The notes beneath the pieces are model-generated. The model had not been told where the DNA came from. It saw only the letters and a program-made list of their open reading frames with translations, and searched no databases. Positions 20,437-58,490 of a stretch of 64,000 nucleotides of DNA are shown in pieces (positions within the stretch are counted from its first letter, which is position 1; every line of letters begins with the position of its first letter). Made by a program: the position numbers and the translations under genes. Location: NCBI RefSeq assembly GCF_000003815.2, contig NC_049985.1:3926157-3990156 (forward strand), given 5' to 3'. Source of the stretch: Branchiostoma floridae (taxonomy: Eukaryota; Chordata; Leptocardii; Amphioxiformes; Branchiostomatidae).

Positions 20437-21325
20437 CTACGAGGGGGGTTCAATAAGTTCTTTGCCTCACCAAGAAATAACAAGCACAACTCAGATTTTC
20501 AGGCACAACTTCATAGTATGAAGTCTTTTATCAATATCCTCCAAATTTCAAATCATTGGAGTCATTACTTTCCAGGCATTCGTTTTTTCTAAATTAGAAG
20601 GTAAGTGGCGAGAAAAAAAGTTGTGTGAATTGTGATCAGACATGTGTTGGTCTAGTTTCCCATGCCATAAATTAACAAAAGACGTTGTCAAAATGTTTGA
20701 TAATGATTCTCTTCCTATTTCAAGCAAAAAGAATTGGGTTTCTAACTTCCAGCAGCGCAAATTGACCCACACACTCAGGTCAGGTCAATTGTCCACGTTT
20801 TTTTCCTTCTCCCTCACCTAACGTTACTGGGTGTCGCCTGCAAAGTAATGATCACACTAATTTGAATTTTGGTACATATTTATATAAGACTTTATACTTG
20901 ACATCTATGCTTCGAAATCTGAGCTGTGCTTATTTTTTCTCGGTAAAGTCGGGGACTTATTGATAACCCCACGTACATGTATAAAGTCTTATATAAATGT
21001 GTACCAAAATTCAAATTATTGTGATCATCATGTTGCAGGCGACACCCAGTAACGTTAGGTAAGGGATAACGAAAAAAAAAGGTGGACAATTGATCTGCAA
21101 CCTGAGGTGTGAGGTCAAATTGTCTGATCACACTTCACCCTTCTTTTTCTCCCCACTTACCTTCTAATTTAGAAAAAACGAATGCCTGGAAAGTAATGAC
21201 TCCAATGATTTGTAATTTGGAGGATATTGATAAAAGACTTCATACTATGAAGTTGTGCCTGAAAATCTGAGTTGTGCTTGTTATTTCTTGGTGAGGCAAA
21301 GAACTTATTGAACCCCCCTCGTAAG
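20437..21325. mobile_element. Mariner-like composite inverted-repeat element, copy A
   Basis: TACGAGGGGGGTTCAATAAG opens the element and its exact inverse closes it, with TA at both borders. A second inverted pair sits inside (TTATTGATAACCCCACGTAC; CTCACCTAACGTTACTGGGT). The whole ~885 bp is repeated in reverse orientation at 37068-37948. No transposase frame is present. The style of the ends fits mariner-type elements; this is inference. Confidence 0.75.
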
Positions 21326-24058: not shown

Positions 24059-25623
24059 TCAGTTGTAGCCGTTCCTCTTCAGCCACTGCGCGCGCGCGAC
24101 CACGTCATTCCCGTAGTCATCCCCGGTAGTACCGATGTCCATCCCGTTGTAGGTCTGCACGTTACCGCACCCGGCGTTGTACCCGGAGATTCCGCCTGAA
24201 AATACAAACAAGTGCGGAGCATTTACCACTGAATATCAATCAAGAGCCCAAGTCTGAAAGTCTAGTACCAAAATGATTTTTTTTTCAGTAATTAGTAGTT
24301 TCGACTTATTCTTTTACTTTCGCGAAGATTTTTAAAAAAATCAAGGATCCAAAATTGACAAGGTAATCTACAATTCTATTTTACCTTGAACTAAAATTCG
24401 TAGTACACGTGTTTTTTGTCAATGCTTATAAGTATTTAAAAAGGGAGTGCCAGAATCCAAGGACAAGGAATATACGGGGTTTGTGAGATCCCGAGACGGG
24501 GGCCGATACCGACTGCCGGACATTGTTGATCCGTCACTTCCGGTCAGGTCACGTGACATAACTTTCGGTCATTTCAACATGACAAGAGACAGAGGAAAGT
24601 CCGAAAGCTTGTTGGTAAGCGCCTTGCTTTGAGTACGGATACGCCTATAAGTGTTGATTTAAATGTTTGCTAGACTCGAGGAACAATCTGAGCTTTTAAG
24701 ATACTTCGGCCCTGGTGACGTGGATGCTGCAACAGCAACATTGCCACGCCACTATCACGGGCGGGCCACGTGCAGGGTGACCAACCAGAAACCAGGAAAT
24801 ACGCGTGCATTAAAAACTGCGTGTGTTCCCGCCAAAACTTTTTCTTTGTCGGTTGATGATGTGTCGGATCACTAATGAATAGGTGAGCTAAGCTAGTATA
24901 GTAACAACTATGCATTTCTTCACGGTAAATGTGGAATCTAGACCAACCTTTGAGGGCCATCTCGGTGCTCCAGCCAGGGTGGTTGCGCTTGACGCAGTTG
25001 ATGGTATCGATGAGGATCTGGGTTCCCTGCTTGATGTGAGTCGTGGTGTACGGACCGCCCTGGGGGGTGTGGTAACGGATGTCCACCTACAGAGGGGGGG
25101 GGGGGGGCGGAAAGAAAGAAGGTCGGCAGAAGTTTACTTATTGTCCTGCTTTTGCAACTGAGTGGGAGGTATGATAAAGTATCTTGAATATACACACACA
25201 CGCAAGCACACGGACGCCCACATACACATACACAAGCGCGCGCACACACACACACACAGAAATACACACACATGCACACACATAAAACACACACTCACAC
25301 ACACAAGTACACACACAAGTACACACACAAGCACACACACACACACACACAAGTTCACAAACACACACACATGCACACACACACACACACACACAAGCAA
25401 GCGTGCTGCACTCCTTGCTCTAGCAGAACATGCAGGAACTGCACTGTTTCCTCTGTTACCTAAACCAACGAGGTTTAAAATAGACACAGACACACAGGCC
25501 ATTAACAATACTTTATTCTTTATTCTAGGCTAAAAGAAAAGTTACAAAATGAATTTCGGTCTCAAAAACAACCGCTCCACCGCCACTCCCCCACCACACG
25601 ATGGTGAGCAATTGATACCATGA

Positions 25624-25697
<74 letters not shown>

Positions 25698-27654
25698 GCA
25701 TGAGCCCGTATCCGTTCCCATTATCCCCTGTTCCGTCCGAGGCCAGTGCTGCGCCTGCGCGGGACTCACGGCTGATGATGGCGGCGATGACGGCGGGGTC
25801 CATGTTCTTGGCGCTGGCGGCGTTATAGATCTTCGATTTGTAGGTGTTCAGGCGGTTGAGGTCTGTCCTGGCCATCTGCTGGGAGGCACTGGTACCTGAA
25901 CAGGATCAGGATCAAAGAAAAACAGCCTTTGAAACTATGGTAAGAATTTCTAATGTCCTCCTCTGCAGAGGAGGACATCAGGCATAAGCAAATTCACGGT
26001 TTTGAGTATGCATGTGTAGCGATAAGAATTGTGGGGGATATGTCAAAGGTGAAGGTGTGTTGGTGGTTTGTTTTGGAGCCTTCACCTTTGACATATTACC
26101 CACAATTCCTGTCGACGCACATGCGTACTCGGAAGTGCGAAAGTGCTTATTCTGATTGCCCTAATTTGAAATGCCTTCTCCTGTAAGCTAGATGCTGATT
26201 GGCCAGTCCTTACTGGTACTAGGTACCTAAGGCAGGTTCATTTGTTATTGACCAGTTAGCTTGTAACCTGTTGGTGTTGAAGTTTTGTCTTTTGTCTGTT
26301 GCGTGCTGTCTGTTTTAAAGCAATCTTCCACAGCTCACACTGGTACATGTACTATTTTTTAAAAGTTTACCTAGTACTTGTATATTTTGTCATACAGTAC
26401 TTATAGATAGACGGGAAATTACTACAATTCTATGGGACTTGGATTTAATCATTTTCTTCTTAATGTGCAATAAATTCTTTGTCATTGTTATAGTTATTGT
26501 TATAGTCATTTATCTGAGACAGAAATCACTCTAACCTCCGTAGCCGATGCCGTCCTGGCTGGCGGTCTGTGCGCTGGCACCGGTAGTGTCCACCGCCATG
26601 ATGTTTCCATAGTTTCCTGCAATAAGTGGCACAACAGCATTCAGGTGATGTAGAGATTATTCTTAGCCTCTACCAGGCTCTTAGCCTCTACCAGGCTCTT
26701 AGCCTCTACCAGGCTCTTAGCCCCTACCAGGCTCTTAGCCTCTACCAGGCTCTTAGCCTCTACCAGGCTCTTAGCCCCTACCAGGCACTTAGCCTCTATC
26801 AGACTATTAGCTTCTACCAGGCTCTTTAATAGCCTCTATCAGGCTCTTAGCCCCTACCAGGGTCTTAGCCTCTACCAGGCTTTTAGCCTCTACCAGGCTC
26901 TTAGCCCCTACCAGGCTCTTAGCCCCTACCAGGCTCTTAGCCTCTATCAGACTATTAGCTTCTACCAGGCTCTTTAATAGCCTCTATCAGGGTCTTAGCC
27001 TCTACCAGGCTCTTAGCCCCTACCAAGCTCTTAGCCTCTACCAGGCTTTTAGCCTCTACCAGGCTCTTAGCCCCTACCAGGCTCTTAGCCTCTACCAGGC
27101 TCTTAGCCTCTACCAGGCTTTTAGCCTCTACAAGGTTCTTAGCCTCTACCAGGCTCTTAGCCTCTACCAGGGTCTTAGCCTCTACAAGGTCCTTAGCCTC
27201 TACCAGGCTCTTAGCCTCTACCAGGCTCTTAGCCTCTACCAGGCTCTTAGCCCCTACCAAGCTCTTAGCCTCTACCAGGCTTTTAGCCTCTACCAGGCTC
27301 TTAGCCTCTACCAGGCTAGGATTCCCGAGCGTACTGACTCTGTGTGTCCACTTTCTACTGTTAGACCACCGATCGGTGGAGCCTGGTAGAGGCTAATTAT
27401 CCTATCATCAAGCCTTGAATGAGCACTAAACTCCGGAAAGGGGTGCTTACGTGCACATGATGACTGAACAGTCGGTGTTAGCTGATAAACTGGTAGTGCA
27501 CTGTCAACCAACCAAACAATCAACCAAACAGCCAGCAAATTCATCAATTAAACACATTGTTTCATACTTATAGTAGTAGTAAATTGTATGAAAAAAATCG
27601 CTCACCTGATGCGGCAGCGACTGCCACAAAGGCCGAGAGCACAACGAACAGCAT
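24059..27654 (-). CDS. Goose-type lysozyme B, secreted, without cysteine module
   Basis: Five coding exons on the minus strand give 201 residues: 27654-27606 (signal peptide [15 protein letters not shown]), 26616-26536, 25895-25696, 25086-24948 and 24195-24059. Exons 2 to 4 have exactly the same lengths (81, 200, 139) and phases as the matching exons of lysozymes A and C. The GH23 domain is complete, with catalytic Glu 87 in SRES and aspartates 101 and 112. The protein goes directly from the signal peptide to the lysozyme domain, with no eight-cysteine module. The first intron instead carries a large minisatellite. The donor after exon 3 is CAG|GTGTGTGTG, the start of a (TG)n run. It lies opposite in direction to lysozymes A and C. 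Role: secreted peptidoglycan hydrolase. Confidence 0.93.
24440..24660 (+). mobile_element. Fragment of the AAGCTTGTTGGTAAGCGC repeat family
   Basis: The segment shares GAAAGCTTGTTGGTAAGCGC and GGGGCCGATACCGACT-like sequence with the arm and body at 58270-58490, and core motifs with 46150-46325. It lies in the last intron of lysozyme B. It is a dispersed element of unknown class. Confidence 0.5.
25186..25396. repeat. CA-rich microsatellite in a lysozyme B intron
   Basis: Interrupted (CA)n with periodic ACAAGT insertions. It generates long spurious frames on both strands. Confidence 0.85.
25621..25695. repeat. (CA)n / (TG)n microsatellite abutting a splice donor
   Basis: About 35 uninterrupted CA units end exactly at the exon-intron border of lysozyme B exon 3. 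On the coding strand the exon ends in ATGCAG and the intron begins GTGTGTGTGT, so the repeat itself supplies the donor GT. The corresponding intron of lysozyme C begins GTGTGTGAG; that of lysozyme A begins GTGGGGAGG. Confidence 0.9.
26660..27318. repeat. 18-bp minisatellite with higher-order variants
   Basis: About 36 units of TTAGCCTCTACCAGGCTC with point variants (CCCC for CTCT, TTTT for CTCT). A longer variant containing CTATCAGACTATTAGCTTC and CTTTAATAGCCTCTATCAGG occurs twice (about 26788-26845 and 26938-26995), evidence of block duplication. One inverted unit lies just outside at about 27382-27396. It fills intron 1 of lysozyme B. The 18-base unit keeps frames open on both strands, which is not evidence of coding. 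Confidence 0.9.
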
Positions 27655-36521: not shown

Positions 36522-36701
36522 ATGATGTTTCTGGTGATTTTGGCTCTGACAGGAGGTGCCCTTGCTAGTAAGTAGATTCTATTTTGCTTGAAGCTCGAAT
36601 GTGTGCGTGTGTGTACGCGCGCACATACTAGTATTACTTCTCTCTGTTTGTTTGTGTGTGTGTTTGTGTGTGTGTGTATGTGTGTGTGCGTGCGTGCGCG
36701 A

Positions 36702-36742
<41 letters not shown>

Positions 36743-39700
36743 TGTGTCAATATACACATGTAGTATTGCAAGTCATCCTCGGTGCTGCTACTTTTCCCGT
36801 GAGACTGGATGCAAAGCATAACGGGTAAATGTATGAAGCCTGCCATCTCTGATTGCCCATGTTCTGACCTCCCGTAGCTGACCCTGAGTGCACGGGAACT
36901 GTCGCCGCTAACGGTCAGTCCGGTCGGTGCGTGTACGCAAGCAGCTGTCCATACACCTACTACATCTCACACAGGTGGGTAATGTACCATGTATGTCAAT
37001 ATTTATTTATTTATTTATTGGTTTGGCTGTTCAGAACACACAGCCAGGGCTGCCCAACTAGCCTATGGCTACGAGGGGGGTTCAATAAGTTCTTGGCCTC
37101 ACCAAGAAATAACAAGCACAACTCAGATTTTCAGGCACAACTTCATAGTATGAAGTCTTTTATCAATATCCTCCAAATTACAAATCATTGGAGTCATTAC
37201 TTTCCAGGCATTCGTTTTTTCTAAATTAGAAGGTAAGTGGGGAGAAAAAGAAGGGTGAAGTGTGATCAGACAATTTGACCTCACACCTCAGGTTGCAGAT
37301 CCCCCTTTTTTTTCGTTATCCCTTACCTAACGTTACTGGGTGTCGCCTGCAACATGATGATCACAATAATTTGAATTTTGGTACACATTTATATAAGACT
37401 TTATACATGTACGTGGGGTTATCAATAAGTCCCCGACTTTACCGAGAAAAAATAAGCACAGCTCAGATTTCGAAGCATAGATGTCAAGTATAAAGTCTTA
37501 TATAAATATGTACCAAAATTCAAATTAGTGTGATCATTACTTTGCAGGCGACACCCAGTAACGTTAGGTGAGGGAGAAGGAAAAAAACGTGGACAATTGA
37601 CCTGACCTGAGTGTGTGGGTCAATTTGCGCTGCTGGAAGTTAGAAACCCAATTCTTTTTGCTTGAAATAGGAAGAGAATCATTATCAAACATTTTGACAA
37701 CGTCTTTTGTTAATTTATGGCATGGGAAACTAGACCCACACATGTCTGATCACAATTCACACAACTTTTTTCTCGCCACTTACCTTCTAATTTAGGAAAA
37801 ACGAATGCCTGGAAAGTAATGACTCCAATGATTTGAAATTTGGAGGATATTGATAAAAGACTTCATACTATGAAGTTGTGCCTGAAAATCTGAGTTGTGC
37901 TTGTTATTTCTTGGTGAGGCCAAGAACTTATTGAACCCCCCTCGTATTACAGAGGGCTAGCCCTGCTGACAAAAACAGAGACAATACAGGTGGATTTGGA
38001 CAGGATACTTATGTATGTCAATATTTGTGTATATATACTTATGAGAGTCACAAATCACTTTAAATGGTGTAAACTTTATCTCTGTTATATACTTTATATA
38101 TATCAGAGTCTGTTATATACTTTGTATCTCTGTTATATACTTTATATCTCTGTTATGTACTTTGTATCACTGTTATATACTTTACATAACTGTTATATAC
38201 TTTATATCTCTGTTATATACTTTATATCTCTGTTATATACTTTATATCTCTGTTATGTATTTTATATCTCTGTTATGTATTCTATATCTCTGTTATGTAT
38301 TCTATATCTCTGTTATATATTCTATATCTCTGTTATGTATTCTATATCTCTGTTATGTATTCTATATCTCTGTTATGTATTTTATATCTCTGTTATGTAT
38401 TCTATATCTCTGTTATGTATTTTATATCTCTGTTATGTATTCTATATCTCTGTTATGTATTTTATATCTCTGTTATATATTCTATATCTCTGTTATGTAT
38501 TTTATATCCCTGTTATGTATTCTATATCTCTGTTATGTATTTTATATCTCTGTTATGTATTCTATATCTCTGTTATGTATTCTATATCTCTGTTATGTAT
38601 TTTATATCTCTGTTATATATTCTATATCTCTGTTATGTATTTTATATCCCTGTTATGTATTCTATATCTCTGTTATGTATTTTATATCTCTGTTATGTAT
38701 TCTATATCTCTGTTATGTATTCTATATCTCTGTTATGTATTCTATATCTCTGTTATGTATTCTATATCTCTGTTATGTATTCTATATCTCTGTTATGTAT
38801 TCTATATCTCTGTTATGTATTCTATATCTCAGTTATGTATTCTATATCTCTGTTATGTATTTTGTATCTCTGTTATGTATTCTATATCTCTGTTATGTAT
38901 TCTATATCTCTGTTATGTATTTTATATCTCTGTTATGTATTCTATATCTCTGTTATGTATTTTATATTTCTGTTATGCATTCTATATCTCTGTTATGTAT
39001 TTTATATCTCTGTTATGTATTCTATATCTCTATTTTATATCTCTGTTATGTATTCTATATCTCTGTTATGTATTTTATATCTCTGTTATATACTTTGTCC
39101 CTTGCCTCCTCCTTCATGACCTCAGTGAAAAGCGGCATACAGGCTGATTTTCGAGCTTTCATGAATAAACAAAGTTCAAACAAACAAACAAACAGGTGCC
39201 CCAGCTACGGAAATAGCGTCAAGTGCTGCTACAACTGCCACCTGGGCGGATGTTCCTACCCTCCTCCTCCTCCTGTCACACCGGAAACTACGTCACAAGG
39301 TGGGCGTGGTCTCTTCTGTTTAATGCATAATATACGAGCATTTCGACATCTTGGTTTTTTGTCCAAGCTCATATTAAAAAGTAGTAAGGTATTTTGTGTA
39401 AAGGATGCATATTATCTACAGCAAAAAATAACACGCATATTATAACTGTTAGTGTTTGCAGTGAATATATGCATATGGTGCATACTGTAAATGCATTTAA
39501 GTTCACCGGGATTTAATTTCGCGGTAGCGGACAAAGGACTGTTCGCGGTTGGCTTAATTTGGCGATAGCATCATGCACTGTAGTCTCTTACTGCCATGAA
39601 AAAATGTTTAGTTTGCGGTAATTTTGCAACGCGAAAACCATGAACATAAAACCACCGCGAACATTTCTGCATTTACAGTATCATCTACAGCAAACAATGA

Positions 39701-42700
39701 CATGCACATTACAGTGTTTGCGCATCTGATAAGTGCCATACCGACCTGCGTATTCAAATATCACAAACATTACAAAATATAGTTGTCGTGGGACGTTTCC
39801 GGACATAGGCTGGTGCGCTGTTTAGGTTAGAGACAGAGTTTTATCTCTATTTAGTCAGATTGATATAATTTGATCTAAATGCAATATATCACATTTATCA
39901 TTTTTACCTATTTTACGCACAGCAACAGCTACAACAACCACAACCCCGACAACCACTACACCGACAACCACAATCCCTACAACCACAATCCCTCCAACCA
40001 CAATCCCTACAACCACAATCCCTACAACCACGACTCCGGCAACCACAACCGACATCAGCACTACAACTAGTAAGTATGGCTCAAAATCTATCATAAAATG
40101 TACTTTCAACATAATGAACAAGTGACTGGGCATGTGCTTCATTTCGACGCTTCAATTTTTTTAATAAGCTTACACGTAAATCTTAATGCAACATGTTTCC
40201 TTACATTTCAATTAGAAAGAGGCTTTATCATTTATGACGTGAGAAATGAATGAATGAGACATAAATGTATGCTGGTTCACAGTTCAAAATGCGCATGAGC
40301 AAGGTCAAGGGTCAAGGCCCCTAAGGGGAGGGACCCGTTTTCGAGTTGGGCAGAAAAATTTTATCGTGTATACTCTCATTTAATTGTTCACTTTTTCTTT
40401 ACGAAAGACGAGTTTTGTTACAAAATGTCCAGTTTTCTGTCCAGAGGACGTGCGACAAAGTTTTTTTTTATTGCTGGATATGAAAAAGAAGACGTTTTGA
40501 CATTTTGTCTTTTTGTGTGTTTCAGTCCCAATTACAAAAACTACACCTGAAGATGGTAAGTTTGACGCATACAAAATGAACATACGTTATAGACATGTCT
40601 GTTTCAACATGTTTAGCAATAACTATTAATAGAAAGGGAAATAAATGGAATTCATGACTTTTATCTATCTCACATGTATAAATACACGCACACTGAATGT
40701 TATAGAAAATTGTATAATAGGTTAAGTTTTAGTCATGAGTGGGTGATGTGGTTTTACATTTGAGAGAGTACGGAGAAATGAACTAATTAATAAACTTTCT
40801 CGACAGTACTGACAAATGTATGTGTGTGTATGTGTTTTTTGCTTGTATGTGCGTATGTGTGTCTGTGTCTGTGTGTGTGTATGTATGTGCGTGTTTGTGC
40901 GTTTGTGTGTGTGTGTGTTTGTGTGTATGTGTGTGCATGTGCGTATGCGTGTTTGTGTGTGTATGTATTTGTGTGTCTACTTGTCCAACCACGTGTCCAT
41001 ACGCAGACCCCGACTGTGCGGACACCCAGGCAGCTAACGGTCAGTCCGGTCAGTGCGCGCACGTGGACAGCTGTCCCTTCGGCTTCTACGTCACCAACAA
41101 GTGTCCCGACTACGGAAGCGACATCAAGTGTTGCTACAACTGTCACCTGGGAGGATGTTCCCTCTCTGCTCCCACCACCACCTTAAGTACGCCATCGGTT
41201 AGGCACTGGGCCTCCCGTGTACGTTTTACCCCTGTCACATTTGGCGAAAATCGGTCGGACGACGATTCTGCGGCAATCGCCCGAGCTCGAGCCTCGCTTA
41301 TAAATATAACATTATTGCACAACTTGTACAAGGTACAAAGTATGGCTTATATGTGACAGGGATGTTTTTCAGGTGAAAAATACGCCTCTGTAGATCTTAA
41401 ATATGGCCGATCTTCCATATGCCCGACGATCGTAGATAATGTGACAGGGGTATTTCTGTTGTTTGGATTGATCAGTTTTTTTATCTGCTCCATTTTGCCA
41501 TTTGATGTTGATTATCGCCATGTTTCCTTCAAGTTATCGTCTGACGGCATTACAGAAGATAAAACAAAATGAAGAAAAAAGTATGACGTATATGCTACCT
41601 CCACCGAAAAGACAACAACTTAATCTAAACTTAGTATCAAATTTATTATTACCTTTTTTTTACACACAGCTCCGGCAACAACCACAACAACCACAACCCC
41701 GACAACCACAACTGATAAAACTACAACTAGTAAGTATGGCTCAATGTCTCTCATGAAATGTACTTTTAACGTATCAAACAACACTACACTAAACCATGAC
41801 AAGTTGTTAGATTTATGTCATAGAAATCTATATTTGCTTTGTATTTTCCTTCTTAATTATTTGTTTGTATTATTGTTGACAGTATTATTATGTGTTGTTT
41901 TAACTTGGGCGGGAGACGCGTTAAAAGATGTAATATCCTGTTTCTCTTGTGCCATGTAGTGAGGAAATTGAAATAGATTAATTTACAGAACATTTTACAG
42001 AACAACTTTGTTCCAACACAAAAAAGTTTCAAAGGAAAAACTCATCATGAGTTTTCGGTCATCTCACTAACGTTCGTCAGATATCTGATTCACTGTGCTG
42101 ACGTCAGGAGTCAGCGCAGTAAATCAGAAATCTGACGAAGGTTGACGAGACCGACCGAAAATTCATTGTGAGTGTCTTCCCTCTGTTGGAAGAAAGTTCA
42201 AACTTTTCAACTATGAATTCTACTACCATACTCGTAGATCAGTCCTCTTTCGAAAACCGACCATTTGTCCATTCTCAGTTGAACCCGAATGTGCGGACAC
42301 CCAGGCAGCTAACGGTCAGTCCGGTCAGTGCGCGCATGTGGACAGCTGTCCCTTCGGCTTTTACGTCACCAACAAGTGTCCCGACTACGGAAGCGACATC
42401 AAGTGTTGCTACAACTGTCACCTGGGCGGGTGTTCCCTGTCAGCTCCCACCACTACCTTAAGTACGCCGTTTCTGTTGTTTTAATGGATCAGTTCAATAT
42501 TTTCAATTCTGATATTTGGTCTGTGTAATCGCCATTTCCCTGTGCTATATATACATCTATCAAGCATGAATCTTTCAATCAGTGCTGGGACCTATTTTCC
42601 CGTTCCTAACAGTACGAATGACTGGCTGACTGACTAACTGGCTGAATGAATGATTGAATGAATAAATGAATGAATAAATGAATGATTCAGAATGAATAAA

Positions 42701-45700
42701 TGAATGAGTCCGCAATATCATTTTACCTGTCACGTGTTGAAAATCGCGAATCAGCGCTTCCCTGAAAATTAAACTCCGGTGCTCCTAAAAGAAGGAGAGT
42801 AACCAAGACCACATGAACTTCTAAAACACCAGAAATCATTATTCCTTTATGCACAGCTCCCACAACAACCTCTACAGCCAGCACCGCCAGTACTACCGCA
42901 GATAGTAAGTATGGCCCCAGATCTCTTATGAATCTGACGTTTATAAGTGAAGGTATCGGTATCTGTAATAGCCTGCAGCTGGTATCCAGCCGTATTATAC
43001 ATGTAGCTCCGATCCCGAGTCTCTTCTGTCCTCGCCGCAAATATTTGTTGAGAGGACAGAAGAGACTCGGGAGCTATAATGCGACTGGGTACCTGGCTAT
43101 ATCCTTAAATGATATGCACAAAAATTAATTTGGATACAAAACATTAATGGTTTCCGGCACGAGTCAACTTTAAACTACCCGTTCAACCGTTTGTCCGGCA
43201 TTCGCAGCCCCCGACTGTGCGGCCAGCCAGGGTGCTAACGGTCAGTCCGGTCAGTGCGCGCACGTGGACAGCTGTCCCTTCGGCTTCTACGTCACCGACA
43301 AGTGTCCCGGCTACGGAAGCGACATCAAGTGTTGCTACAACTGTCACCTGGGCGGATGTTCTCTCACTGCTCCAAGTAGTACGTCAGCAGGTAGGGCTGC
43401 TCTTCCGAGTTCCTTTCTGTGGTTTGGATGTACATGTATCAGCTAACGACATAATTTGCAGAAGATGTAAGAAGTAGAGGAAGACGTAATGACTCAACGT
43501 CTCTTCTGAGCAACTAGTATTAATTACCAGTACGAAACGTTGAAAGGTTGTTAGGTTTATGCAATATGAAGGTCTTTAGATTCGTAAATTTTAAAGTACA
43601 GTTGGCCATATCATATGATTTGTGCGTTACGTTTACAACAGTGCAGTTCCGATATTATATATAGGAGAAAGCACTCCTCTAGAACAACGAATATGTAGAT
43701 ACTGCAGTCTAGATAAGTTAGAAGACGAACATCATTTTGTAGTAGAATGTAGTTTGTACAAGAAAGAGAGAGCTGAACTCTACAGACTAATAGAATCCAT
43801 GTTCCCCCACTTCATACAACTAAGTAATATAGACAAATTTATATTCCTTATGAATCTAGACAAGCCTTTACTTATAAAGCATATCGTTCTTACATTTTCA
43901 ATATCACAAAGAAACGAGAAGAAGCCGAATGTACGCAGTAGAATACGATCCTTGAGTAGTGTAGATTCATTGTATCATTATATCATGTTGTATCATTTGT
44001 TGTGACCTGTACTAAACCCAGTGGGTATGAATGTACAATAAAGGTCTTCATTCATTCATTAAATAATATTGGGCATCTCTTTGCAGCAACAGTGACGACC
44101 ACAACGGCGAGCACTGCCCACACCCATGGAACAAGTGGTAGGTATATATAACGATCATATAGTAAGGTTCTTTTAGCACAACCAGAAAATAACTTACTTC
44201 CGACGTTTCGGTGTCTGTCAGACACCATCATCAGGGTGGAATGACGGGAACTACTTCTTGCTGCTACTTATAGCCGATGTAGGTGGCGTTGCAGCAGCAA
44301 GAATGCCATCCCCAGACGTGGCTCAGCTTGTATCCCCCCTCGTCTCTGTTCATGACTGGCACGGATTTTCTGATCCAAACTGCTTCTTTAATCCATTTTC
44401 TTGCTGCTGCAACGCCACCTACATCGGCTATAAGTAGCAGCAAGAAGTAGTTCCCGTCATTCCACCCTGATGATGGTGTCTGACAGACACCGAAACGTCG
44501 GAAGTAAGTTATTTTCTGGTTGTGCTAAAAGAACCTTACTATATGAATAATTGCCAACCTGATGAAGTTATTCACGGATATATATAACGATATCCGTCAT
44601 TTCCTTCTGAACTTACAGCATGGGGATGAATCATTACATTGCTAGGACCTTCCTAATCAACAGTAAGAAAAAAGTAGATAGCATTCCAAACGGAGAAAAA
44701 GTGGAAGTTTAATCCATCATTATGTCGCCCTTAAGGCTCCACTAACCCAGACCTTGTGACCTTAAAACCACGAGACATCGCCATTGGCAATTGGTCATGC
44801 GCACCCGAAGAAGACTGTAGTAAATACATCCATCATCATCATCATCGGTCGACGTGATCAAATGTAGACATGTTCGCACATGTCTACACACGACGGGGTT
44901 ATACCGCCCCTTACGGGGTGACATACCCTTTCGTAGGCTAATTACAAGACGGGGATGCGCCAGGTCTCCCGTCAAATACATCCATGTGCATTATTTGATT
45001 AATATACGATCTGAATGATGGAAACACATCCCGTAGCTGCCTGTAATGCAAACCGCCAAAACAGATAAGTTATAAAATGCCTTGTTGCTATTAAGATGTA
45101 CATAAATTCCCGTGACATTCTACAGGAAACTATGGAAACATCCTGGCGGTGGACACAACAGGAGCCAGTGCGGACACCGCCAGTCAAGACGGCCTGGGAT
45201 ATACAGGTAAGAGCAACATCGTGATGGCTTGACAGATAGTACAACAAAGATTTTTCCCTAAAACATTGATACACTCTTGCTATTACATGAAAAATGTTTA
45301 ACTTTCTGACATTTAAAAACTTGTGAGTGGACCTGGTCCGGGCAAGCCGCCTGTGATGATGATGATGATGAAGACCATTAAGTCATCTATATCTCCAAGC
45401 AGATCCTACGGTAGCATAAGATACGTAGTATCAAAAGTTGACAGAGGAGTGAAGCCGGCGTAGGAGTGTGTATGGCTACCGGTAGTATTGGCCTTACTCC
45501 TCTGCCACATTTTGGTGTTATCTTATGCTTAGGATCTGTTTAGAGATTACAAGTCATTGAAAAATGCAGATATTACAGAAATTGCCTTGTTTGTTATGGG
45601 GCTTTATTTAAGTAACTTGTCTTGTTATTAATTGTGTTTGATGATCTGTTTCTTTATTTATAGGCGTTGCTGCTTCTCACCAGATGGCCAGTACGGACCT

Positions 45701-47116
45701 GTCGCGCCTAAACAACTACAAGTCACAGATACTTCAGGCCGCCAGCGCCAAGAACATGGACCCTGCCGTCATCGCCGCCATCATCAGCCGCGAGACGCGC
45801 GCAGGCGCAGCACTGGCCCCCGACGGAACAGGGGATAATGGGAACGGATTCGGGCTCATGCAGGTGTGTGAGAGGTGTAGTGTGCACTTAGCTTGGGTCT
45901 TGTTTGGAAGAGTAGTTCACATTGTTTGACCTCTGAACATATTATAGCAATGAGATATAGGGGATAACAGGACAAACTCCACAGAAATTGGGGAGTTGAA
46001 CACACAGTTTCAGCTCTGGCGGTAAGATGACTTCATATAGCCGTCATGACGTCATATCTGATTGGCCGAATACTGACTTCTTTCACTGGCATATTTGACT
46101 ACATTTTTGACTGTCGGATTGCTGACGATCCGCTTGCTCAGAACACGTGACCTTACAGACGTGTGATGTGAGCAAGGGGTCAAAAGTGGCTGGAAGTCGG
46201 CATCGACCCCCGTCTTATTTTTGTTTTTACACGTCCAGGTGGATCATTGTTACCTCGTGTGATGTGAACAACGGGTCAAAGGTGGTTCGGAGTCGGTGTT
46301 GACCCCCGTCTTATTTTTGTTTTGTTTTTACTCTGCTTTCAGGTGGACTACCGCTACCACACCCCAGCAGGCGGCCCGTACAGCACCGAGCACATGATGC
46401 AGGGAACTCAGATCCTCATCGACACCATCAACTGCGTCAGGCAGAGACATCCTGGCTGGACCGCCGAGATGGCCCTCAAGGGTCCGTCTTACTTGTTTTG
46501 TTTTTATCAAAATGACATAGCACGAGCGATAGTCTGATTTGCATAGAGGACTCGTATAACGCTGTAACATTGTACAGCGTGCTTAGATATCGATGTTACA
46601 AAGTTTTAAAGATCGACCAACGCTGATTTATTTGATTGAAATTAGTACTTACGACAGAAGACAGTCAAACACCTTTGCCGAAAAGACAAAAATGCTCAGC
46701 TGGGAGTAGCTATGATCATATTACATGGAGAAAAACCAATTACGATGAGAGGAATTACTGCAAGTACTGTTATCTTTTCAGCTATTTGCAGCAAATATAC
46801 AAAAGTAGCGGTCTCCTCTCTCAGCACTGGGCGCCAGTGCTGAAGAATTTTCAGCACTGGAAGTCCAGTGCTGAGGGAGCTTCAGCACTGGAACAAGGCC
46901 GTTCAGCACTGGAAAACCAATGCGGAACCCGCTACTTTTGTACACTTGCCTATTTGCAAATATTACTCCTTCGTATTTTCAGGCGGAATTTCCGGGTACA
47001 ACGCCGGGTGCGGTAACGTGCAGACGTACGCCGGGATGGACGTGAACACCACAGGCGACGACTACGCCAATGACGTCGTCGCGCGCGCCCAGTGGCTGAA
47101 AGCACATGGATTTTAG
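36522..47116 (+). CDS. Goose-type lysozyme C with four eight-cysteine modules and mucin-like linkers
   Basis: Fifteen coding exons give 560 residues: 36522-36567, 36878-36974, 39196-39299, 39923-40069, 40526-40555, 41007-41186, 41670-41729, 42279-42461, 42857-42904, 43208-43390, 44087-44137, 45126-45206, 45664-45863, 46343-46481 and 46983-47116. The signal peptide is [15 protein letters not shown]. Cysteine modules are coded by exons 2+3, 6, 8 and 10, each with the pattern C-x(12)-C-x5-C-x9-C-x8-CC-x2-C-x4-C. Exons 4, 5, 7, 9 and 11 are Thr/Pro-rich linkers expected to be O-glycosylated. The last four exons code a complete GH23 lysozyme domain with Glu 447 and Asp 461 and 472. Nearly all module borders are phase 1. 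Only module 1 is split by an intron. Inferred role: mucin-like secreted lysozyme that holds peptidoglycan or mucus through its repeated modules. AATAAA lies near 47175. Confidence 0.9.
36600..36752. repeat. (TG)n microsatellite in intron 1 of lysozyme C
   Basis: Interrupted TG/GTGC repeats. Frames here are artefacts. Confidence 0.85.
37068..37948. mobile_element. Mariner-like composite inverted-repeat element, copy B
   Basis: It is the reverse-orientation twin of 20437-21325, with the same TACGAGGGGGGTTCAATAAG ends and nested inner pair. It lies in the gained intron of lysozyme C. Confidence 0.75.
38067..39095 (+). repeat. 20-bp minisatellite, about 50 units
   Basis: Unit TCTATATCTCTGTTATGTAT with variants (TTTATATC, ATATAC, ATCCC). 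Because 20 is not a multiple of 3, each frame reads the same 20-residue cycle, and all three forward frames are open over hundreds of codons. This explains the 385-, 427- and 274-residue frames here; they are not genes. The unit resembles CCACTGTTATACTCCTATCT of the retroelement tail copy near 500, so it may have grown out of that sequence. Confidence 0.9.
39096..39193 (+). mobile_element. Retroelement 3' tail ending in (CAAA)n
   Basis: CATGACCTCAGTGAAAAGCG, TTTCATGAATAAAC and AAAGTTCAAACAAACAAAC match the copy at 505-598. The tail runs into the acceptor of lysozyme C exon 3. Confidence 0.6.
39405..39830 (+). promoter_or_regulatory. Two promoter-block copies inside a lysozyme C intron, split by a MITE
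   Basis: A partial copy (ATTATCTACAGCAAAAAATA to TGTTTGCAGTGAATATATG, 39409-39475) and a fuller one (CAGCAAACAATGACATGCAC to GGGACGTTTCC, 39690-39800) resemble the upstream blocks at 29050 and 35410. Whether they act as an alternative promoter for the downstream exons is unknown. Confidence 0.45.
39484..39688. mobile_element. MITE with TACTGTAAATGC ends
   Basis: TACTGTAAATGCATTTAAG at the left is matched by GCATTTACAGTA at the right. Inner arms CGCGGTTGGCTTAAT and AAACCACCGCGAAC are partly inverted. About 200 bp. Confidence 0.55.
40815..40982. repeat. (TG)n microsatellite before a lysozyme C module exon
   Basis: Interrupted TG/TGC repeats end ~25 bases before the acceptor of exon 41007-41186. 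Long frames through it are artefacts. Confidence 0.8.
41227..41452. mobile_element. MITE with ACCCCTGTCACAT ends, copy 2
   Basis: TACCCCTGTCACATTTGGCG opens and ATAATGTGACAGGGGTA closes. Same body as 20097-20330. It sits in the intron after module exon 41007-41186 and is absent from the paralogous intron after 42461. Confidence 0.7.
41995..42215. mobile_element. Palindromic MITE
   Basis: AACTTTGTTCCAACACAAAA, GTTTTCGGTCATCTCACTAA and CGTCAGATATCTGATT are mirrored by AAATCAGAAATCTGACG, GACGAGACCGACCGAAAA and TCTGTTGGAAGAAAGTT. Related ends appear near 22990-23050. Confidence 0.6.
42970..43105. mobile_element. Hairpin MITE (GCTGGTATCCAGCCGTATTA family)
   Basis: CCCGAGTCTCTTCTGTCCTC is followed by its inverted match GAGGACAGAAGAGACTCGGG, and the outer ends are also inverted. 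Related to 13515-13935. Confidence 0.65.
43605..44065 (+). pseudogene. LINE remnant: C-terminal zinc-binding tail of a reverse-transcriptase protein
   Basis: The 126-codon frame 43622-44005 carries [20 protein letters not shown], the C-x2-C-x8-H-x4-C arrangement commonly found after reverse transcriptase in LINE proteins. It is followed by AATAAAGGTCTTCATTCATT, a simple-repeat tail. No RT core precedes it, so this is a 5'-truncated copy in an intron of lysozyme C. Confidence 0.65.
44155..44546. mobile_element. MITE with ~148-bp terminal inverted repeats
   Basis: TCATATAGTAAGGTTCTTTT at the left and its inverse at the right begin arms that stay nearly perfectly complementary through CTTATAGCCGATGTAGGTGG and GCAGCAGCAAG. 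The loop is ~95 bp. Intron of lysozyme C. Confidence 0.8.
45391..45547. mobile_element. MULE-like MITE (TCTCCAAGCAGA family), copy 2
   Basis: ATCTCCAAGCAGATCCTACG opens and CTTAGGATCTGTTTAGAGAT closes with decay. AAGTCAT is present near both borders. Confidence 0.6.
46145..46330 (+). repeat. Tandem pair of the GGGTCAAAGGTGG repeat
   Basis: GTGATGTGAGCAAGGGGTCA and GTGATGTGAACAACGGGTCA start two ~65-bp copies, both ending in GACCCCCGTCTTATTTTTG. A third relative is at 58300-58365, and a reverse-orientation one near 24490-24545. Confidence 0.6.
46785..46975 (+). repeat. Short hairpin array of CAGCACTGG / CCAGTGCTG, copy 1
   Basis: At least six alternating CAGCACTGG and CCAGTGCTG words lie within ~120 bp and are flanked by AAAAGTAGCGG and CCCGCTACTTTTGT. 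A longer copy in reverse orientation is at 51165-51400. Confidence 0.65.
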
Positions 47117-48392: not shown

Positions 48393-49748
48393 TCATCCGC
48401 GGAAGAACTTGACAGACTGAAGACAATCAGAAACGACCAGATGTCCGTCGTGAGACAGCGCCAGGCCCCCTGGATGAAGCAGTCCGTGTTCGTCCCGTGT
48501 CAGCACGTGCCTGATAAACGCGCCGTCCGGACTGAACAGGGAAACGCGATGGTTGTAGGTTTCAGCCACGATGATGTTATCGTCACTGTCCGTGATTACA
48601 CCGGAGGGGTAGTTCAGCTGACCAGGTTCGAACCCAAATGACCCGGATGTAAAGAGATGACGACCGGCGGGGTCAAATATCTTCACGTCATGGTTGTCAT
48701 GGTCACTGACGATGATTTGGTTACTGCTGTTAACGACGACATGGAGGAACGGTCCCAGCTGCTGCTGAACTTGACCTTTGTCCCCAAACTTCAGCATGAC
48801 GTCACCACTGCGACTGAGTACGAAAACCTGGTACCCGATAGTGACGATGATGCGTCCCAAACCGTCAACAGCGATACCTTTCGTAGTTTTATCTGTCTCT
48901 GCAGCCCCTGTCACCTGGATGATACGTAACTCCCTCCCCTGTTTGTCCAGTACGTGAATCCTGTGTCCGTCTCCTGTCACCAACAGCTCACCGTTTGTCA
49001 GTGCAGCCACACACTCTGGCATGAACCACAGATCGACCTTCTTCCTGAAGGAACCATCTTTGTCAAGAATTTTCAGCCCCGAGTTGTTGATTTCAGTCAC
49101 CACAATGTCTCCCTCCGCGGTAACAGCAAGCGGGTACGGAGTGCTAAACTGTACATCTCCACTGCCCCCCTCTCTAACGGTTTTGATGTGTTTTAGATTC
49201 GCACCTGCGATCCGTACGTTCGATCGCACCTGCCTGATTTGGGATGAGCGTAAAGATGTTCTAACCCGGGCGTCGTCCGTGGCAACTTGGTCAGCTTGCG
49301 AGTCTTGGATGTTTACAACTATGTGGGACCTCGTCGCCTTGAACCGACCGTGGGTGTCGTTACACGTCTGACACAGGTAGTCGGTACACTCCACACAGTA
49401 AAAGCTGGCCAAGTTCGCAGCCTCGCAAGCCGTACAACTACTAAAGGGGATTCCATCCTCCCTCGCCTCGGGCTTCTCCTCCTTCGGCTGTTGTTGTAGA
49501 ATGTCGCGCAGTTTGCCAACGAGGAAGTTGGACTTCAGCCCCTGGACGCCATTCTCCGTGAGGGGCACGTCCTGTCGGCATGTCGGACAGTCCAGTTTCC
49601 CTACCGGCTCTGTGGCCAGGAGCCTCTCCAAACACGGCTGGCAGAAGGTGTGAAGACACGGCAGCATCTTAGGCTGCTTTAAGTCTTCCAAACACTCATG
49701 GCAGACGAGAAATTCGTCTTTGATATCGCTGATTACGTTGGACACCAT
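48393..49748 (-). CDS. TRIM-NHL protein (RING, B-box, NHL propeller), single exon
   Basis: The start is placed at Met 49748 (MVSNVISDIKDEF); the longer frame begins with a GTG codon, which is not an animal start. The protein has 451 residues. A C3HC4 RING (C16, C19, C31, H33, C36, C39, C54, C57) is followed by a B-box-like segment at about 105-140 (CTACEAANLASFYCVEC). A short linker leads to NHL repeats from ~190 to the end (PYPLAVTAEGDIVVTEINN, GLDPAGRHLF-like blades, NYPSGVITDSDDNIIVAETY). RING proteins of this class are E3 ubiquitin ligases, and the NHL propeller binds RNA or protein. No clear coiled coil is seen. Intronless TRIM genes are common in lancelets. A frameshifted fragment of a related 5' end lies upstream at 49985-50101. 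Confidence 0.92.
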   Translation of the reverse strand: MVSNVISDIKDEFLVCHECLEDLKQPKMLPCLHTFCQPCLERLLATEPVGKLDCPTCRQDVPLTENGVQGLKSNFLVGKLRDILQQQPKEEKPEAREDGIPFSSCTACEAANLASFYCVECTDYLCQTCNDTHGRFKATRSHIVVNIQDSQADQVATDDARVRTSLRSSQIRQVRSNVRIAGANLKHIKTVREGGSGDVQFSTPYPLAVTAEGDIVVTEINNSGLKILDKDGSFRKKVDLWFMPECVAALTNGELLVTGDGHRIHVLDKQGRELRIIQVTGAAETDKTTKGIAVDGLGRIIVTIGYQVFVLSRSGDVMLKFGDKGQVQQQLGPFLHVVVNSSNQIIVSDHDNHDVKIFDPAGRHLFTSGSFGFEPGQLNYPSGVITDSDDNIIVAETYNHRVSLFSPDGAFIRHVLTRDEHGLLHPGGLALSHDGHLVVSDCLQSVKFFRG

Positions 49749-49984
49749 GTTCAGTACCAAGTACTCGTGAAAATACGGACTTTGACACACCCATTAAAGC
49801 CTCAGAAGTGGACACCGTGAAAAGCCTTGAGGTGTCCTTGAGCGTTTGTATTGATGTTTACCATTTAACACTGGTGTTTACACAATCCCACGCTGACTGG
49901 GGTCAATCAAGGAGAATGAACCTTTTTCAACCTCCTTGGAATAATGACCCCCCTCCCCTACCTAATATATACACAGGTGTGACC

Positions 49985-56379: not shown

Positions 56380-58490
56380 TCTAAACTTTATATCCGTACA
56401 CAAAATAAAGGGCTTACCAGCAAGCTTTCGATCAGTCCTCTGATCCTTATCAGGAAGACCCACGTAAGTGGTGGGGCGCTGTTAACCGTGAGCTTGGCAG
56501 AGCACAAGAGAGATCTAATAGTACCACCATTGAGGACGTGCCAGACCACGAGGTGGCCGAGGTCCTAAATCAGTACTTTTCCTCAGCGTGGTGTCCTGGA
56601 ACGTCTTTGCACCTGTGCCCCCTGCAGTGCCCGACTCCATGCGTTGACTTGTGTTCGATTGGCGAGGTGAAGACTCTTCTTAAGGGCTTAAACCCTCACA
56701 AGGCAAGCGGTCCTGATGATCTCCCGACATGGACTCTCAAGCATTACGCTGACGACTTGGCGCCAGTCATCACCCACCTGTTTAACGCTTCGTATGAGGA
56801 GGGGGTTGTTCCTAGCATATGGAAGGCGGCAAACGTTGTCCCTGTGCCAAAATCTAAGGGTGCAGCTAACGCCAGTGAGATGAGGCCCGTGTCCCTCTTA
56901 CCCGTAGCGGCCAAGCTCATGGAACGGTGTATTCTGAAAAGACTATTGCCCTCTATTACACCTGCCATTAGAAACCAGAACGCTTACCTGAAGGCTTCTT
57001 CCACTGTCTTAGCGGCCATAAGGATGGTACACACGTGGCTGTCAGCCTTAGACTCAAGACGTCACGCTGCAGTCCTTGCTTTGTTCGCAGACATGAGCAA
57101 AGCATTTGATAGAGCGAACCATTCAATTCTCCTCCAACGAGTGAACGACGTGGTGACCAATCCACGCATGGTAGCCTGGATACAGAACCATCTGCAGGGC
57201 CGTACCCAGAGAGTGGTTGCTAACGGTAAAGTCAGCGAGTGGAGAGTACTCACTTCGGGGGTACCTCAGGGAGGTGTACTGTCACCCTACCTTTTCCTCC
57301 TGTTCATGAGTACTCGAGACGTAGTCTACAGCGACACTCTTGATGTCGGCTACGCGGACGACGTGGGTTTGTCCAGGTCTATCTCCCTGGAGAAGGATCG
57401 CGTGGATAACAGTATGAGAGAGGAAGCGCTACAGCTTGATTCCTGGGCGGAGTGCAATGACATGCTGCTAAACGGCAAAAAAAGTCAGTCTCTGTTGATC
57501 TGCTTCAGCAGAAACATTCCACTTTTACCGCCACTCTCTCTCGGCGGTGAACCCGTACCATTCTCAAGGGTCGCAAAGGGCCTTGGGTTCATCTTCGACT
57601 GCAAGCTGTCATGGCACGACCATGTTCAATCCCTCGTTTCAAAAGCATCGAGCAGGCTGCACTATCTCAGACTACTGACTAAACAGGGGATGTGCGTGGC
57701 TGACCTGGTTCAGATTTACCTGTCACTTATTCGTAGCGTTCTTGAATACGGTCACGTTCTGCTGGTAGGTTGCAGCAAAGAACAATCGGACAGTATGGAA
57801 CGGGTACAGAAACGGGCCCTCCGTATCATCTCTCTCGGGGGTAGGCGATCAGTTCCCAACTTACCTTCCTTAAAAGAAAGGAGAGAAGCTGCTGCAGTAA
57901 AGCTCTTTAAGGACATGTTAAGACCCGAACATCCACTGCACGACCTTGTGCCTCCTCAGAGACGCACAGTTACTGGCAGGCAACTGAGGAACAAGAACGC
58001 GTTCACTCTCCCCAAGGCAAGAACTGACAGACTGAAACAGTCGTTCCTCCACACTGCAGTCAGACTTTATAATAACTCTATTTCCTAGCATTACCATCAG
58101 CCTGTGAGTTCGGATCTATGCTTAGTGTTTGTTAATATATTATGTATTTTTGTTTGTTGACATTCTGCACGTATAAGTTTCTTTGTAACAAACCTACGCA
58201 ATTCAGGGTATACCATGTGTGTATTTCCCTGCCTATGTACGTTTGAGGAAGAAATAAATAAATAAAAATAAATTATCAAGTTGAAATGACCGAAAGGAAG
58301 TGTGACGTCAGCAATGGGTCAAAGGTGTTTGGAAGTCGGTATCGGCCCTCGTCTCCGTTGAGGGAAGGTTGATAGGCTCTGATGTGACATAGGCTCTGGG
58401 TAATTTCAACTTGATAAGGATCAGAGGACTGCGCGAAAGCTTGTTGGTAAGCGCTTTATTTTGTGTACGAATATGAAGTTTAGAATTGTA
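56380..58490. mobile_element. Inverted-repeat element split by a LINE
   Basis: The ~75-bp arm at 56380-56455 (AATTCTAAACTTTATATCCG, CTTACCAGCAAGCTTTCG, CTGATCCTTATC) is inverted at 58410-58485 (GATAAGGATCAGAGGACTG, CGAAAGCTTGTTGGTAAGCG, AAGTTTAGAATT). The truncated LINE lies between, so it probably jumped into this older element. Relatives of the right arm and body are at 24440-24660 and 46145-46330. Confidence 0.65.
56440..58275 (+). mobile_element. 5'-truncated non-LTR retrotransposon with intact reverse-transcriptase frame
   Basis: The open frame runs from at least 56445 to 58088. Reverse-transcriptase blocks are visible in order: NPHKASGPDDLP, MRPVSLLPVAAKLMER, ALFADMSKAFDRA, TSGVPQGGVLSPYLF and GYADDVG, the last being the catalytic F/YADD box. 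A thumb and C-terminal region follow to RLYNNSIS. There is no endonuclease domain upstream, so the copy is truncated. The 3' end is an AAATAAATAAATAAA-type tail at 58249-58270. The RT is uninterrupted over ~545 codons, suggesting recent arrival. Clade is uncertain (CR1/L2-like by feel). It lies directly upstream of the ENaC start codon in opposite orientation. Confidence 0.88.

Follow-up and report, generated by a model that had tools for sequence, protein, structure and literature searches.

For many newly gained introns the source has gone untraced (PMC3296678; PMC4202315), and one study counts 187 gained introns without a definite mechanism (PMC3296678). In Drosophila sechellia, intron 3 of GM26034 is described as derived from the retrotransposon Doc1053; it is 98.4% similar to the element, its second repeat lies 15 nt past the intron end, and five residues were added to the protein (PMC3296678). 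According to the AGGT model, a target AGGT that comes to stand at both borders of an insert furnishes the donor AG/GT at one and the acceptor AG/G at the other, leaving the coding sequence unchanged (PMC3443670). Introners, which are introns derived from transposable elements (TEs) inserted into exons, are reported to be over-represented in aquatic lineages, with target-site duplications (TSDs) in 49/130 and terminal inverted repeats (TIRs) in 72/177 of the families (PMC9860276). In amphioxus itself, the "mirage" minisatellites of the globin and Adh genes are linked to introns and have been discussed as a route of intron gain (PMC3087553), and a study of amylase genes that included the lancelet is reported to have found no intron created by TE insertion (PMC3096672).

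A putative intron in the gene for an antibacterial, goose-type lysozyme of the lancelet Branchiostoma floridae appears to be a further case of this known, rarely caught route of intron birth. We document its structure, the homologies of its parts, the order in which they became nested and the intact gene model that surrounds them. We propose, with a probability of roughly 0.84, that the truncated 3′ end of a LINE inserted into an exon encoding a cysteine module of the lysozyme, became a spliced intron, and later grew. From this one genome it can be read which family the insert came from, where it landed, that the sister exons lack the intron, and how the intron later grew. Among the open-licence papers listed by our literature searches, none dealt with a LINE-derived lancelet intron.

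Like the Doc1053 intron (PMC3296678), the lancelet one interrupts an animal gene, would stem from a retrotransposon and keep the frame, and has repeats at its borders or close to them. In contrast to that case, the predicted join in the lancelet is residue-exact, and the founding insert would be a short truncated 3′ end whose tail provides the acceptor. Two more elements and a minisatellite have since enlarged the intron. The border pattern of the AGGT model (PMC3443670) recurs here, although the model presumes a duplicated AGGT and the LINE family concerned shows no duplication signal (see below). Introners constitute families of many similar introns, whereas the lancelet intron is a single case (PMC9860276). 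That the (CAAA)n-tailed LINE is itself a retrotransposon introner, its tail before a G acting as a ready-made 3′ splice site that has seeded several lancelet introns, strikes us as very improbable. Mirages have in common with the lysozyme intron a minisatellite tied to an intron in a lancelet gene, yet they are tandem copies of an intron–exon boundary (PMC3087553), while the 20-bp array of the lysozyme intron lies inside the LINE and did not create the splice sites.

The host gene lies on the + strand at 36522-47116 of the 64,000-nucleotide stretch analyzed here (the window), where a model built from splice signals and homology comprises 13 exons (Table 1). Its product is one intact open frame of 530 aa (1,593 nt), a goose-type lysozyme with four cysteine modules; from the N- to the C-terminus it consists of a signal peptide (recognized by eye), the four modules with their threonine-rich linkers, and a lysozyme-g domain. 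Among solved goose-type lysozymes, the best PDB match of the C-terminal domain is 3wyh (E 5e-50, query residues 2-150 of 150), and a Pfam search with the whole protein returned CLIP over four stretches, the cysteine modules (E 1.8e-9). Three single modules tried against Pfam gave no match. Two further candidates were discarded, namely TEP1_CUB2, which scored at chance level in the whole-protein Pfam search (E 0.74), and the PDB matches of one cysteine module (E 0.19-0.55). The exon of the fourth module ends in a cluster of three phase-1 donors (43376-43393, all within 16 bp), which could yield variants in linker length.

Table 1. Coordinates of the lysozyme gene, its LINE-containing intron, and candidate splice sites, numbered from the first base of the window
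Feature	Position	Strand	Basis
Exon 1, signal peptide, donor phase 1	36522..36567	+	gene model
Exon 2a, first cysteine module, 5′ part	36878..36974	+	joined frame, gene model, paralogue alignment
ACAGGTG, 5′ copy, carries donor	36971..36977	+	direct match
Junction bases GGTAA	36978..36982	+	alignment, by eye
First LINE, 5′ piece, continues at 38027	36983..37004	+	matches in family copies
16-bp duplication, 5′ copy	36989..37004	+	repeat search
Second LINE, 5′-truncated, (AAAT)n-type tail	37005..38010	-	genome matches, L091 comparison
MITE	37070..37946	.	inverted repeats, copy at 20437-21323
16-bp duplication, 3′ copy	38011..38026	+	repeat search
First LINE, middle piece	38027..38095	+	matches in family copies
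20-bp minisatellite	38109..39089	+	tandem array; LINE copies with about one unit
First LINE, 3′ end with (CAAA)n tail	39096..39194	+	genome matches
Competing LINE-internal acceptor, 14/17 pyrimidines; joined to 36974, stop at aa 54	39124..39125	+	70 bp upstream of 39195
Alternative frame-keeping acceptor, +21 codons, 9/17 pyrimidines	39131..39132	+	AG scan
Alternative frame-keeping acceptor, +7 codons, 8/17 pyrimidines	39173..39174	+	AG scan
ACAGGTG, 3′ copy, carries acceptor	39192..39198	+	direct match
Exon 2b, first cysteine module, 3′ part	39196..39299	+	joined frame, gene model, paralogue alignment
Exons 3-12 (pre-insertion numbering): Thr-rich linkers, three further modules, goose-type lysozyme domain	39923..47116	+	gene model, Pfam, PDB

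The intron in question occupies 36975-39195 on the + strand (2,221 bp) and splits the first module in phase 2, at the codon AG/G. Among the 12 introns of the gene it is the sole one in this phase, ten being in phase 1 and one in phase 0. Excising it joins 36878-36974 to 39196-39299 in frame within an arginine codon, in agreement with an earlier note on this DNA, which held that removing the insert and one border repeat rebuilds a continuous exon. The two halves retain all eight cysteines of the module, and neither bears a frame-breaking change. A six-frame search of the whole genome (513.4 Mb, 431 contigs) with the joined module as query produced 11 candidates, all of them scored: the two host-module halves, seven other modules, and two weak protein matches that were dropped (E 1.24 and 2.87). 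Each of the seven other modules (7/7), the host gene's own other three included, spans the site in one piece and free of stops; the four paralogues in the window that had been reported as intronless are thereby borne out and joined by three more elsewhere in the genome. The module at 13289, continuous across the site, is identical to the host module at 64/95 positions in the 5′ part and 54/58 in the 3′ part.

These empty sites are paralogous rather than orthologous and come from one lancelet genome, and none of the 11 protein matches represents a second allele without the intron. We infer that the intron was gained after the modules had duplicated. At the insertion site, five of six aligned paralogues read AAG-TGC against AG^G-TGC in the host, and L010 differs (the codon alignment covers six of the seven modules; the sequence of L016 was examined separately). 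Since five paralogues carry AAG where the host carries AGG, the target AGGT would most simply have arisen through an A-to-G change in the host lineage.

The two ends of the intron can be assigned to a single high-copy family of LINE-like repeats, in whose other genomic copies the matching pieces are contiguous and in order. To the last 99 bases of the intron (39096-39194), 39 other copies are 87-91% identical among the 40 scored of 998 first-look candidates, and within that scored set only the host locus extended into exon 2b. For the middle piece, 38027-38095, 43 candidates yielded 39 matches at other places in the genome (identity 79-97% over 35-72 bases), besides one to the minisatellite of the host intron itself. 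In most copies examined the counterpart of this piece lies directly upstream of the LINE 3′ end, L063 and L081 diverging soon after, and copies that extend further 5′ contain the sequence of the intron start, from 36983 on. The GTG at the very start of the intron is common to the target, and the GGTAA that follows (36978-36982) matches neither the repeat nor clearly the LINE. Because the family matches at the two ends are contiguous, the founding insert would have been a 5′-truncated 3′ end of about 215 bp with a (CAAA)n tail; with the later additions accounted for, it matches one family except for about 5 bp.

When a longer copy served as query, the genome yielded 2,554 first-look candidates, 40 of them scored. 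The 3′ block is present in 66 of the 74 candidate loci examined, most of which then continue into a (CAAA)n-type tail, and 41 copies were scored as 5′-truncated within the last 218 nt. Variable 5′ truncation combined with a common 3′ end and a simple-repeat tail is the pattern of a LINE, and these features support assignment of the family to the non-LTR retrotransposons. Doc is presumably a non-LTR element as well. In copy L031 an open reading frame (ORF) stops 237 nt short of where the 3′ block ends, which makes it probable that the founding insert consisted of 3′ untranslated sequence throughout. We take this ORF piece to resemble the C-termini of CR1/L2 elements; its C-terminal 162 aa matched no Pfam family, and the 3.4 kb upstream of the L031 copy (L094) contain no sense ORF of at least 110 aa. 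On these grounds, and because the L031 ORF piece is unlike the window's own reverse-transcriptase ORF, classification of the family by reverse transcriptase was abandoned. That ORF of the window, at 56409-58085 (+), is an open frame of 559 aa with an RVT_1 domain (E 1.1e-20).

Compared with each of its eight closest relatives among copies with more than 75 aligned sites, the 3′ block of the host LINE shows 5-6 substitutions over 77-85 aligned sites, along with 2-5 gaps; part of this divergence may predate the insertion. A majority comparison of the block (14/85) was set aside, being read as inflated by misalignment at the block ends. Three copies of the family, L005, L046, and L050, lie by eye near apparent exon ends with a donor, and are probably located within existing introns.

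That the LINE instead landed beside the acceptor of an older intron at this site, whose original sequence was later lost, we regard as extremely improbable: such a history would need exact replacement of the whole intron by the LINE, with only about 5 bp of non-LINE intron sequence remaining, at a phase unlike that of the module introns and at a position empty in all seven other modules (three of them the host's own), even though TE insertion into existing introns is common and LINE-family copies such as L005 adjoin apparent exon ends by eye. The membership of both ends in one family, the 7/7 intronless paralogous modules, and the intact frame on either side uphold the earlier proposal that a LINE insertion gave rise to this putative intron.

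On this preferred reading of direct insertion, a LINE copy cut to about its last 215 bp would have entered, in the orientation of the gene, an uninterrupted phase 1-1 cysteine-module exon. The landing site, CACAGGTG, would have become splice-like after a Lys-to-Arg codon change (AAG to AGG), if the direction of change suggested by the paralogues is correct. The target bases on the left would have yielded the strong donor CAG/GTGGGT, and the LINE tail together with the target bases on the right the acceptor (CAAA)nCAG/G. Splicing from 36974 to 39196 is predicted to restore the original frame with no residue added or lost. From about 0.22 kb at insertion, the intron would since have grown to 2.2 kb.

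Whether the borders also preserve a target-site duplication calls for separate consideration. The heptamer ACAGGTG does stand at both of them, as had been claimed, and is consistent with a target duplication of 4-7 bp; it is not diagnostic of one, because splicing itself imposes AG/GT and the family lacks an excess of duplications. ACAGGTG is not rare in itself, with 15 occurrences in the window against 8.98 expected and 15 reached in 7/100 shuffles. A third occurrence, at 37986-37992 inside the second LINE, where L092 and L093 read ACATATG, is probably a coincidence. Over the other 11 introns of the host gene, the runs of identity between donor and acceptor are 0, 2, 0, 0, 0, 0, 0, 2, 3, 6, and 2 bases, and among the 121 donor-by-acceptor combinations of these introns none reaches seven identical bases and three reach six. 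The donor of the LINE-containing intron matches 2/11 of the unrelated acceptors over 7 bases, and its acceptor 2/11 of the unrelated donors over 6. Since such matches occur among unrelated introns, the ACAGGTG repeat alone is weak evidence.

For the LINE family as a whole, no duplication signal was detected in 41 truncated copies compared with permuted flanks: the mean flank match is 1.93 bases against 1.66 permuted, a value attained in 61/400 permutations, and matches of at least 5 bases occur in 2/41 copies (1.95 expected by permutation) and of at least 7 bases in 1/41 (0.16 expected). This test was adopted in place of a looser one on 65 copies (65/66, with no significance computed), which had included copies whose 5′ end falls outside the reference, and in which the mean was 2.23 against 1.83 permuted, with at least 6 bases in 4/65 against about 3.9% permuted. 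Of the phrase "with target-site duplication" in the earlier note, the 7-bp repeat thus stands and is consistent, and the family-wide signal is absent. It is possible, at somewhat less than even odds, that the pair is not a duplication and that constraints of splicing, the CAAACA tail, and additional bases at the junction account for the match. The LINE tail itself can supply the ACA of the repeat, and the permutation result and the 7-base matches of the donor to unrelated acceptors point in the same direction; such an origin, however, needs about ten extra 5′ bases where LINE copies read otherwise, and matches of at least 7 bases are uncommon in unselected copies. More generally, a short border repeat is no proof of target-site duplication, as splice signals alone can mimic one.

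The two splice sites differ markedly in quality. The donor CAG/gtgggt agrees with MAG/GTRAGT at 8/9 positions and is joint best with two others of the 12, whereas the putative acceptor at 39195, which the (CAAA)n tail forms in sequence as previously described, has 5/17 pyrimidines and is the poorest of the 12, the other 11 having 9-14. A branch-point-like CTGAT places its A 48 nt before the acceptor end, and TTCAT occurs twice, at 79 and 34 nt. We would expect U2-type splicing, part of it lost to the non-productive acceptor at 39125. Competition between a productive and a non-productive site should be measurable. The A-rich tail of a LINE, these features suggest, may act as an acceptor without a polypyrimidine tract.

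Six AG dinucleotides occur in the last 140 bp of the intron, and three of them keep the frame (39132, 39174, and 39195). Splicing mainly to 39174 (+7 codons) or 39132 (+21) would make the gain other than residue-exact. We consider this unlikely, since CAG is the usual acceptor triplet, whereas both of these sites are AAG, and since the join to 39195 gives the exact length of the paralogues. The two sites do keep the frame with more pyrimidines (8/17 and 9/17 against 5/17), and the Drosophila Doc case, with its five gained residues, provides a precedent for such an outcome (PMC3296678).

Alternatively, the exon may simply be broken, the insert not being productively spliced and the module or the gene decaying, or being rescued by skipping of both halves. 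Intron retention would lead to a stop at aa 130. The very poor acceptor with a better non-productive one upstream would suit this reading, as would the clean skip over 2a and 2b, exon 1 to exon 3 being phase 1-1. Such in-frame skipping would spare the remainder of the gene while leaving 2a and 2b themselves unprotected, and these two halves keep their frame and all cysteines next to a LINE that has diverged from its closest relatives by about 6-8% substitutions and several gaps; the donor, moreover, is joint best of the 12. We judge a broken exon improbable. Productive splicing to 39195 is preferred because the 1,593-nt frame, both exon halves, and the cysteines are intact beside the diverged LINE block, and decay would be expected to show were the insert unspliced.

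The later growth of the intron had been ascribed to a MITE and a minisatellite. Both are present, but the account was incomplete in that a second LINE on the opposite strand came before the MITE, and, while right to regard the minisatellite as a later enlargement, it omitted that the array grew out of sequence belonging to the first LINE. The 16-bp duplication ATGTATGTCAATATTT flanks 37005-38010 on either side, and between its copies lies the second LINE, a 5′-truncated member of another family that sits inside the first LINE on the minus strand and bears an (AAAT)n-type tail. Among 896 candidates for this element, 39 other scored copies are 97-100% identical over 59-65 bp, and copy L091 is the same second LINE without the MITE. 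The MITE, which spans 37070-37946 with its TA duplication included, has long terminal inverted repeats and sits in the second LINE; an alignment of 877 bases with a copy at 20437-21323 shows 4 mismatches and 4 gaps (98.3% identity counting gaps). These two near-identical, young copies, about 16 kb apart, have 180-bp inverted arms and are each flanked by TA.

Because of this nesting, the order of events runs from the first LINE through the second to the MITE: the second LINE would have entered the first in opposite orientation, producing the 16-bp duplication, and the MITE would have entered the second LINE. The minisatellite (38109-39089) comprises 49.4 copies of a 20-bp unit built from the first LINE's own TATCTCTGTTATATACTTT, which occurs about once at the corresponding point in other LINE copies. 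On this comparison the array postdates the first LINE, a 20-bp stretch of which would have expanded in place.

Goose-type lysozyme domains occur three times within 35 kb, at 13289-17806 (+), 24065-25875 (-), and 36522-47116 (+). The first of these, a lysozyme domain at 15965-17806 (+), has the module at 13289 upstream, presumably in the same gene; for the second, at 25875-24065 on the minus strand, no module was found nearby. At 48396-49793 (-), a 466-aa open frame combines RING, B-box, and NHL repeats and is of the TRIM-NHL type.
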